Assembly: GCA_024637225.1 (NCBI GenBank)
Contig: JAGXFP010000029.1
Coordinates: 18,660 to 82,659 of the forward strand
Length of the DNA: 64,000 bases
Reading direction: 5' to 3'
Source: Desulfobacterales bacterium
GTDB taxonomy: Bacteria; Desulfobacterota; Desulfobulbia; Desulfobulbales; JAGXFP01
Positions 6,403-54,032 of this stretch are shown here, one piece after another. Numbering within the stretch: the stretch's first letter is position 1; each line of letters begins with the position of its first letter. A program made the position numbers and the translations under genes. Below the pieces are notes generated by a model. It did not search any database, was not told the DNA's origin, and saw only the letters and a list, made by a program, of their open reading frames with translations.

Positions 6403-7145
6403 CCCTTGGAGAGATAGTCGAGGGCGCCGTAATTGGTCCGGTCAAGATGGAGGGGGGTGATCGAGATATAACCGTCCTTGACCGCCTGGGCATCGGTATC
6501 CTCCCCCTTGTCCCAGACCGGTATGCCGCCGCCGATCCAGAAATGTTCCCGCCCCCAGGGATCACGGGTCTCCATGATGGCGCCTTCATACTTGCGGCGG
6601 CCCTGCCTGGTAAACTTGATCCCGGCAATCTCGGCAATCGAGCCTTCCGGCACGTTGACATTGAGCAGGGTATCCGGAGGCAGCCCCTGGCCGAGGATCA
6701 TCCCGGCCAGCTGGCCGGCAAAGCGGGCGGCCGATCCGTAATCGCAGGGCTCCTCGCAGGCCAAAGAAACGGCAAAAGAGGGGATGCCCAGCATGGTCCC
6801 CTCGATGGCGGCGGAAACCGTCCCGGAGTAACTGACATCATCGCAGAGGTTGGGGCCGGGATTAATTCCGGAAACAACCAGTTTCGGGGTTTCGCCGAGG
6901 ATCTTGCCCACCGCCAGGATCACGCAGTCGGTCGGGGTGCCGTCCGTCGAATAGCGGCCGACGCTCAGTTTTTTGACCCGCAGGGGCCGCTGCATGGTAA
7001 GGGAATGGCTGGCCGCGCTCTTGTCCCGGTCCGGAGCGACCACCACCACCCGGCCGACCCGGTCCAGCTCCTCGGCCAGGGCCTGCAGGCCCGGGGCAAA
7101 AATCCCATCATCATTGGTGACCAGAATCAAAGGCCCGTCTGTCAT
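6363..7145 (-). CDS. surE: 5'/3'-nucleotidase SurE
   Basis: ILVTNDDGIFAPGLQAL...APDRDKSAASHSLT...SGINPGPNL...YSGTVSAAIEG. Confidence 0.95.
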   Translation of the reverse strand: MTDGPLILVTNDDGIFAPGLQALAEELDRVGRVVVVAPDRDKSAASHSLTMQRPLRVKKLSVGRYSTDGTPTDCVILAVGKILGETPKLVVSGINPGPNLCDDVSYSGTVSAAIEGTMLGIPSFAVSLACEEPCDYGSAARFAGQLAGMILGQGLPPDTLLNVNVPEGSIAEIAGIKFTRQGRRKYEGAIMETRDPWGREHFWIGGGIPVWDKGEDTDAQAVKDGYISITPLHLDRTNYGALDYLSKGWADPFRAGEDQS

Positions 7146-7157
7146 TTCTATCTCTCC

Positions 7158-7425
7158 TTTGAAAGGGGTAAGGACAGTGAGGGTTTAGGGGTGAAGAGTG
7201 AAGAAAACCTGACTTCCCCGACCTGCTTTGCCATGGGGCCTGGATAATATGAATCGGCCTTTCCATGGATTCTTTTGCACCCCTAGCTGTCCTTACCCCT
7301 CACCCCTCACCCCTCACCATTTTACTTTACCATTGAAGCTTGCGGCTTTTAACTTGCAGCTTACCCTCACTCCTCACTCCTCACCGTCCTTTTCCCCTCA
7401 CCGTCCTTGAATCTCACCTGTAATC
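7158..7425. repeat. Intergenic heptamer-type repeat island A
   Basis: cccctcacccctcacccctcacc, cctcactcctcactcctcacc runs plus aaaacctgacttccccgacctgctttgcca core. Confidence 0.7.
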
Positions 7426-7608
7426 CTTCTTATTTACTAAATTTTCAGCTATATTAAAGCCATAAACTTTTCCGTGATTCGACAAGCCCAGCACGAACGT
7501 TAAATCAATATGTTACGCCTCTCATCCTGAGCATGTTCAAGGAAGGGCTATCGACTTTTTACGAGTTTATCACAAATAACCTGAACTACAACCAAAGGAG
7601 AAATTATC

Positions 7609-9824
<2,216 letters not shown>

Positions 9825-51235: not shown

Positions 51236-52294
51236 TTATTGATCGGCGACTTCATCGGCAAAAAAACACTGGGGATCTTCGGCCAGGAAATCCTCGCCGC
51301 CCCGGGACAGCGACCCGGCATAAGCAATCGCCCGGCAGCCCCGGCAGAGAGCCCAACGGGGGCAAGCGCCGCATTTGTTTTTATAGGCCGGCCGCTCCCG
51401 CAACTGCTCCAGAACCGGCGAGCTCGCCCAGATTTCCCGCAGGGAATCATGCCTGACATTACCGATCACCACCGGCAGCCGCCGGCAAGGGGTGACCCCA
51501 CCGTCCGGCAGAATAGTCAGCCCGGAAACCCCGGCCGCGCAACCGCCGGTCGCAGCCATTCCGCAATCGTTCCATTCCACCATATTGCGCAGCTGGGAGG
51601 CAACCGGGTCACCGGTAACGATTTCCAAACCTTGGACGGGACGGGCAAAAATTGCTTGATAGATTTCTTTAAGCCGAACAGGTTCGATCATCTGATCGAC
51701 CATCCCCAGGCCGCGGCCGGACGGAACCAGCCTGGAAAAGCCGAGCCGCTGGACCTTCCAGGCGCCGGCGATATCGATCATCTCGTCAAACTTCTCGGCA
51801 TTGATCTTTGAGAGGGTGGCGTTCAGGGTGACTCGCAGGCCGGCGGCCAGCAGATGGCGAACCCCTCGACGGGCAGCCTCGAAACTTCCCTTGCCCCTGA
51901 TCGATTCATGGATCTCCTGCGGGCCTTCGAGACTGACCTGGACCCCTTTCACCCCGAGATCCGCCAGGGTCGCCGCCTTCTTTTGATCCACCAGGGTGCC
52001 GTTGGTCAGCAGATAGGTCGCAAAACCCCGGTCGCGCATCTCAGCGAGGATCTCGAAAAGATCCCGGCGCAGAAATGGTTCGCCGCCGGTTACATTTAAA
52101 CTCGGTGAGAACTCCAGGGCATAGGTTTTTTGCCAGGCCTGGAGCATTTCATCGATCTCGCCGAGCACCTCGCCGACCTCGCTCCGGGAAAGCTCAGCCA
52201 TTGTCACACCGTTCTGGTAGCAGTGGCTGCAACTAAGGTTACACCTTTCCGTCAGATGCCATTGAACGAAGAATTCCTGCTGGGGGCTGATCAT
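51236..52294 (-). CDS. Radical SAM/SPASM domain protein (peptide-maturase-like)
   Basis: HLTERCNLSCSHCYQ; NVTGGEPFLR; C-terminal KCGACPRWALCRGCRAIAYA...DPQCFF. Confidence 0.9.
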   Translation of the reverse strand: MISPQQEFFVQWHLTERCNLSCSHCYQNGVTMAELSRSEVGEVLGEIDEMLQAWQKTYALEFSPSLNVTGGEPFLRRDLFEILAEMRDRGFATYLLTNGTLVDQKKAATLADLGVKGVQVSLEGPQEIHESIRGKGSFEAARRGVRHLLAAGLRVTLNATLSKINAEKFDEMIDIAGAWKVQRLGFSRLVPSGRGLGMVDQMIEPVRLKEIYQAIFARPVQGLEIVTGDPVASQLRNMVEWNDCGMAATGGCAAGVSGLTILPDGGVTPCRRLPVVIGNVRHDSLREIWASSPVLEQLRERPAYKNKCGACPRWALCRGCRAIAYAGSLSRGGEDFLAEDPQCFFADEVADQ

Positions 52295-52388
52295 CGGTTT
52301 TCCTGTTTTTCCGGATAATTTTGCCAGGGGTCCGTTGTTTTGAGGACGGAGCGGCAGTCATTTATTCCAGGGTTTTCAGATAATAAGC

Positions 52389-52434
52389 AAAGACGGATGC
52401 AAGGATCCCGAAAGGGCCTGGTGCATCCGTCTTT
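52389..52434 (-). terminator. 13-bp perfect hairpin between the 34-codon ORF and the radical SAM gene
   Basis: AAAGACGGATGCA ... TGCATCCGTCTTT. Confidence 0.75.
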
Positions 52435-52480
52435 TAAGGCGTCGTTGCCGACCGGCAACTTAATCGGATTTTCATCCCTT

Positions 52481-52585
52481 TCATTTGTGGCAGATGCCGC
52501 CGGGATAATCTTTAGCCGCCTCGCTCATTCTGGTCCAGAAAGCGGCTTCCTTGGCCAAGGCCTCTTTACTCGGAAGCTTCTTCAT
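52481..52585 (-). CDS. 34-aa peptide, candidate RiPP precursor
   Basis: MKKLPSKEALAKEAAFWTRMSEAAKDYPGGICHK*; GGAGG RBS 8 nt upstream; upstream of the radical SAM gene on the same strand. Confidence 0.6.
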   Translation of the reverse strand: MKKLPSKEALAKEAAFWTRMSEAAKDYPGGICHK

Positions 52586-52744
52586 AATGAAATCCTCCAT
52601 CCGGTTATGCCACGGCAGAACGCCATGACTATACCTACAGGATCGGCTAAAGGAAGTTTCCATGTCAATCGGAAAAAGTAATCGGGTCAATCGAAATCGG
52701 GCAGGAGCATCGGGCAGGAATAAAGGGATCACAAATCAGGATAT

Positions 52745-53766: not shown

Positions 53767-53899
53767 TGATGGCGTCGCAAAAATCGCCAGCTCCTGCGTT
53801 GCTGCAAATTGTCTCGGCATTGCAACGTACTGAAGTACGTTTCATTCCTCGAAATTCACGCGCCTTGGATCTGACGATTTTTGCTTAGCCATCCCATTT
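53767..53899. repeat. Family D copy
   Basis: gatggcgtcgcaaaaatcgccagctcctgcgttgctgcaaattgtctcggcattgcaacgtactgaagtacgtttcattcctcgaaattcacgcgcc... Confidence 0.85.
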
Positions 53900-53922: not shown

Positions 53923-54032
53923 CGGATGGCTTCGCAAAAAATCGCCGGCTCCGGCGTTGCTGCAAATTGTCTCGGCATTGCAGCGTACTTAAAGTACGTT
54001 TCATTCCTCGAAATTCGCGCGCCGTGAATCTG
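53923..54032. repeat. Family D copy
   Basis: ggatggcttcgcaaaaaatcgccggctccggcgttgctgcaaattgtctcggcattgcagcgtactt... Confidence 0.85.

Follow-up and report, generated by a model that had tools for sequence, protein, structure and literature searches.

Analysis of a 64,000-nucleotide stretch of a Desulfobacterales genome (the window) led to a short gene that is best read as encoding a peptide with two selenocysteine (Sec) residues, together with a gene for a radical SAM/SPASM enzyme on the same strand. It is likely, in our assessment, that the two belong to a small selenopeptide system, in which a SECIS element would guide the insertion of Sec at two UGA codons and the SPASM enzyme would modify the product. 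A RiPP pair had already been proposed at this locus by the first-pass annotation, which described a 34-codon open reading frame with a good ribosome-binding site, a strong hairpin behind it, and a radical SAM protein with a SPASM cluster. The coordinates and sequence of that frame proved correct, as did the other two elements (Table 1), and in outline, as a conserved precursor-like peptide with a SPASM enzyme, the proposal stands. Its account of the core does not. The peptide had been taken to end at YPGGICHK, but the frame runs on through two UGA codons as CxxUKxUK; and within YPGGICHK, which had been offered as the modified core, only the cysteine is invariant among 22 peptides, the histidine being replaced by R or L and the GGI varying freely.

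Table 1. Features of the selenopeptide locus, in window coordinates
Feature	Position	Strand	Evidence
YceI-like (lipocalin-like) protein, 177 aa	50682..51215	-	PF04264, E 2e-37
Radical SAM/SPASM putative maturase, 352 aa	51236..52294	-	Radical_SAM E 1e-23; SPASM E 2e-12
Terminator-like hairpin, 13-bp outer stem, in the gap between precursor and maturase	52389..52434	-	-27.1 kcal/mol
Candidate bacterial SECIS stem-loop, GUUGCC-GGUC-GGCAAC	52444..52459	-	bSECIS model fit and covariation
Precursor selenopeptide gene, 41 aa	52460..52585	-	tail C-x-x-U-K-x-U-K-x(x)-stop in 23/23 loci
True stop, TAA	52460..52462	-	
Proposed core, C32-H-K-U35-K-G-U38-K-S-D	52463..52492	-	CxxUKxUK tail in 23/23 loci
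UGA-2	52472..52474	-	
UGA-1	52481..52483	-	
Codons 1-34, leader with KEAxFW motif, ATG at 52585	52484..52585	-	alignment of 22 peptides
Ribosome-binding site, GGAGG	52594..52598	-	sequence; 8 nt before the ATG

With U standing for UGA, the full reading of the precursor is MKKLPSKEALAKEAAFWTRMSEAAKDYPGGICHKUKGUKSD, of which codons 1-34 make up the entire frame that was recognised when UGA-1 was taken as a stop. In the alignment of 22 peptides, residues E13, W17 and C32 are invariant and the KEAxFW motif of the leader is conserved, while AGGAGG- or GGAGG-like sites lie 5' of the frame in nearly all relatives. Beyond the apparent stop, every one of 23 loci continues in frame with TGA-AAR-NNN-TGA-AAR, followed by one or two codons and a stop. 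Both Sec columns are TGA throughout, and the second, at +9, is never lost; among 743 background TGAs of the window, only 17 have another TGA at that distance. The two lysine columns vary between AAA and AAG only, and the column after the second UGA-Lys pair is occupied by serine, written as TCN (8 loci) or AGY (6), by threonine (7), or by glycine or lysine (1 each). The alternation of lysine codons and of the two serine codon families indicates that amino acids are conserved past the UGAs, not merely DNA. The sequences thus strongly support the view that both UGAs encode Sec, and that the peptide is best read as 41 residues. One observation counts against the overall explanation, namely that no homologue with cysteine in place of Sec, which would give the comparison usually made for such a reading, occurs among the 23 relatives; there is only an analogous peptide with repeated cysteines in the sister system described below. 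Because gene callers normally end a frame at the first UGA, the core has hitherto been invisible. The peptide had not been recognised as a member of any known family, and neither the short form nor the Sec-extended versions that were searched matched anything in NCBIfam, Pfam or PHROGs; nor was the peptide found in viral contigs.

The candidate SECIS stem-loop lies directly 3' of the true stop; the distance to its loop is 27 nt for UGA-1 and 18 nt for UGA-2. The bacterial SECIS (bSECIS) model specifies a loop of 3-9 nt with a G in the first two positions, a stem of 4-16 bp, a distance of 16-37 nt from the UGA, and a minimum free energy of at most -7.5 (PMC13188914). This geometry was present at both UGAs in all 23 loci, and 22 of them also kept within the energy limit of -7.5 kcal/mol, the exception being L062 at -7.4 kcal/mol; for comparison, 49 of the 743 background TGAs from the window fitted the model. 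In five loci the true stop is itself TGA, at a distance from the hairpin shorter than the model permits. Across 21 distinct sequences, all 126 of 126 cells were paired, with two-sided (compensatory) changes in four of the six pairs and no one-sided changes, a covariation score that was reached by none of 500 shuffles. At L070 and L072 the stem-loop reads GUUGCA-GGUC-UGCAAC, which we take to be close to the fdhF element of E. coli. Rfam held no family for either hairpin of the locus, SECIS-like or terminator-like.

The machinery for Sec insertion is present in the genome of the window, which carries a tRNA-Sec with anticodon UCA, SelB (374 bits), and a selD gene with an in-frame UGA of its own. 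Either tRNA-Sec or SelB was above cut-off in every peptide-bearing genome, and both were in most, but the same holds for nearly all tested genomes of the phylum, so that the presence of this machinery is necessary without being discriminating.

Peptide and enzyme are found together wherever either belongs to the system. The peptide was detected in 23 genomes from 10 families, all within the one phylum searched, as a single copy per genome, and in each of the 23 it adjoins an orthologous radical SAM/SPASM enzyme, which bears out the expectation of conserved pairing and rules out a chance open reading frame. Two members of the window's own family have a peptide 62-65% identical to that of the window, and a Desulfobulbaceae MAG has one at 71%; the adjacent enzymes of these three are 69-73% identical. 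Within the order, 258 genomes yielded 10 that encode the peptide, with the enzyme adjacent in all 10; at an eleventh enzyme of the clade (G244) the upstream side is lost, the contig starting inside the adjoining YceI gene. The phylum-wide search, made on an even sample of 395 genomes, gave 14 peptides, all of them next to the enzyme or, at contig ends, to a fragment of it, with enzyme identities of 48-61% (the window's own genome aside), and no clade enzyme lacked a peptide. Enzymes at the edge of the clade, in G445, G486, G508 and G518 (425-453 bits), were rejected as members, as no CxxU or CxxC peptide lies nearby. The edge enzymes at L104-L107 and L109, two of them copies within G445, are about 45% identical to the maturase. 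Tree support for separating peptide-bearing enzymes from peptide-less relatives was weak (33/0), which counts against the preferred explanation.

The enzyme itself is closest in fold to peptide maturases. Its CxxxCxxC motif (C18, C22 and C25) and the seven SPASM cysteines (C252, C270, C308, C311, C317, C320 and C343) are invariant in 22 enzymes, and the AlphaFold2 model (pLDDT 87.9) begins with the radical SAM barrel, without an RRE domain. The nearest PDB folds to this model were PqqE, the closest, SuiB, SkfB, anSME and ChlB, nearly all of them peptide- or protein-modifying enzymes. No recurrent PqqD-like gene was found in the neighbourhoods, which is unusual for SPASM-RiPPs and counts against the preferred explanation, although a leader-binding RRE or PqqD is only a frequent and not an obligatory part of such systems. 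None of the NCBIfam models reached its cut-off for the enzyme, and assignments to NirJ, GeoRSP or ACGX were rejected on that ground, as were SbtM (131.6 bits against a TIGR04082 cut-off of 350) and mycofactocin MftC (142.6 against 265, with no MftA-like peptide or MftB nearby). A separate AhbD-family-like radical SAM gene (G371:C176:4825-5856, 232 bits) contains one in-frame UGA, and may be a further selenoprotein or a frame artefact.

Three other explanations of the locus were weighed. That the first UGA is a real stop, so that a 34-residue peptide ends in GGICHK with a modified cysteine tail and the hairpin beyond is a mere RNA element, agrees with the conservation of the standard-code frame beside the enzyme and with the CHK, or a relative of it, that ends all of the peptides so read. 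It is nevertheless very improbable, given that the downstream codons are conserved in frame with synonymous variation in 23/23 loci, that the hairpin fits the bSECIS model at both UGAs and covaries, and that the +9 UGA is never lost. Still less probable is the idea that the enzyme is an AhbD/NirJ-like protein of the haem pathway and the peptide an accessory to it. AhbD (188 bits) and NirJ2 (169) do give the top NCBIfam scores, but the former is far under the TIGR04545 cut-off of 500 for heme b synthase, a better AhbD candidate (444 bits, G000:C2) lies elsewhere in the same genome, and the relatives of the enzyme all pair with the peptide rather than with haem genes.

The strongest of the three, though we consider it unlikely, is that the peptide is an unmodified small selenoprotein which handles metal or peroxide through CxxUxxU, the radical SAM enzyme having some other substrate. 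CxxU and UxxU are typical motifs of redox and metal sites in the tabulated selenoprotein families (PMC13188914), and redox genes occur beside the system at single loci, a Redoxin at L086 and a Sec-containing SQR-like protein at L077. Against this, every genome that has the peptide pairs it one-to-one with a SPASM enzyme, the peptide is small and has a KEAxFW leader, and the nearest structures to the enzyme are peptide-maturase folds. Modification of the peptide by the enzyme is the reading that we favour, and we infer it from adjacency, co-occurrence and fold.

The gap between precursor and maturase holds the terminator-like hairpin, the stability of which stands out from that of shuffled sequences (z = -6.1). 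The layout of precursor, hairpin and maturase, as first described, recurs in the relatives: a strong hairpin occupies the same position in 20 of the 22 loci examined, its stem sequence being unrelated from one locus to the next. The same placement with unrelated stems supports the view that this element is probably an attenuator. On the other side of the maturase, the YceI-like protein has no visible signal peptide and is termed cytoplasmic. Its gene adjoins the maturase in only 9 of 24 loci, which counts against the preferred explanation, in the order peptide-rSAM-YceI or peptide-YceI-rSAM; for part of the family it makes up a third component of the system. The YceI-like proteins of the system are 44-75% identical to one another, compared with 37% for the other YceI of the window's genome.

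No recurrent transporter, protease or immunity gene was found near the system. At L077 (G525), the SQR-like gene (6533-7837, minus strand) overlaps the end of the maturase gene by 4 nt and reads through a UGA in a HATU motif, which resembles the HxxU reported for one subtype of type III sulfide quinone reductase that is a selenoprotein. In one genus, genes for B12-binding radical SAM proteins (L078, 7724-9520, and L080, 8593-10212, both on the minus strand) lie directly upstream of the selenopeptide and possibly specify a second tailoring enzyme. Elsewhere in the window, two direct intergenic repeat copies of about 95 nt (53779-53873 and 53937-54032) are 93% identical and 158 nt apart.

How the system might work can be outlined from these parts. 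SelB, directed by the SECIS after the true stop, would insert Sec at both UGAs, giving 41 residues that end in CHKUKGUKSD. The SPASM enzyme would itself recognise the KEAxFW leader, needing no separate RRE or PqqD protein, and would modify the core of cysteine, Sec and lysine, most likely by cross-links of the seleno- or thioether type or by a related oxidation, while the intergenic hairpin would keep the precursor in excess over the enzyme. The cytoplasmic YceI-like protein, with its lipid/quinone-binding fold, may carry or use the product. An internal redox or metal-binding factor is more likely than an antibiotic, since the core is nearly fixed, the gene is present in single copy, and there is no recurrent transporter, protease or immunity gene. 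As a more tentative and, on balance, doubtful extension, the product may belong to a new class of cofactor, a selenopeptide of ribosomal origin, in which a linked or oxidised Cys-Sec-Sec array serves anaerobes as a redox or metal cofactor with the YceI-like protein as carrier or partner. The full 41-residue sequence provides a defined substrate for probing the action of radical SAM enzymes on selenium.

A single kind of Sec-containing RiPP has so far been listed. Of the 119 prokaryotic selenoprotein families in a 2026 table, just one is of the RiPP type, namely the selenobacteriocin TIGR04081, whose motif is SGUG (PMC13188914); this is the SbtA/SbtM thio(seleno)oxazole RiPP system (PMC11002830). 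The system described here shares with SbtA/SbtM a short precursor, a Sec UGA, a downstream SECIS, and an adjacent radical SAM/SPASM enzyme (PMC11002830, PMC13188914). The two differ in that the SGUG of SbtA is replaced by CxxUKxUK, the precursor with U read as C does not match TIGR04081, and the SbtM model begins with ~190 residues that have no counterpart in the enzyme.

In other respects the system is reminiscent of mycofactocin (MftA/MftC) and PQQ (PqqA/PqqE), which also combine a SPASM maturase with a tiny, conserved, single-copy precursor whose core is short and C-terminal. However, no MftB- or PqqD-type carrier lies near the system here, and the enzyme scores only 95.5 with the PqqE model against a cut-off of 381. 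The cores of mycofactocin and PQQ are VY and E..Y, respectively, rather than cysteine and Sec. With the sactipeptides and ranthipeptides (SkfB, CteB and SuiB-type enzymes) the likeness is in the SPASM fold and the two sets of auxiliary-cluster cysteines, and in a chalcogen-rich core that would suit thioether or selenoether formation; here, in contrast, the chalcogens recur with a period of three residues, Sec providing two of them, and there is no leader-binding RRE.

A sister RiPP candidate was seen at L048/L059 (G023:C3), where a 47-aa peptide (L048, 1077-1220, minus strand) ending in CKQCSSCHSCR is accompanied by a PF05402 (PqqD-like) protein and by a radical SAM/SPASM enzyme that shares 39% identity with that of the window. 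Its tail, CxxCxxCxxCR, has the same period-3 spacing as CxxUKxUK, a point in favour of the preferred explanation, but it contains cysteine only, the system includes PqqD, and the precursor is otherwise unrelated. In the literature, no paper was found on a CxxUxxU peptide. The system is therefore put forward as a candidate for a second kind of Sec-RiPP, unrelated to SbtA/SbtM, its novelty being judged against the 2026 family table (PMC13188914); if this is borne out, it would be distinguished by a single SECIS that serves two Sec residues and by a tail, CxxUKxUK, that stays fixed across 10 families of a single phylum.
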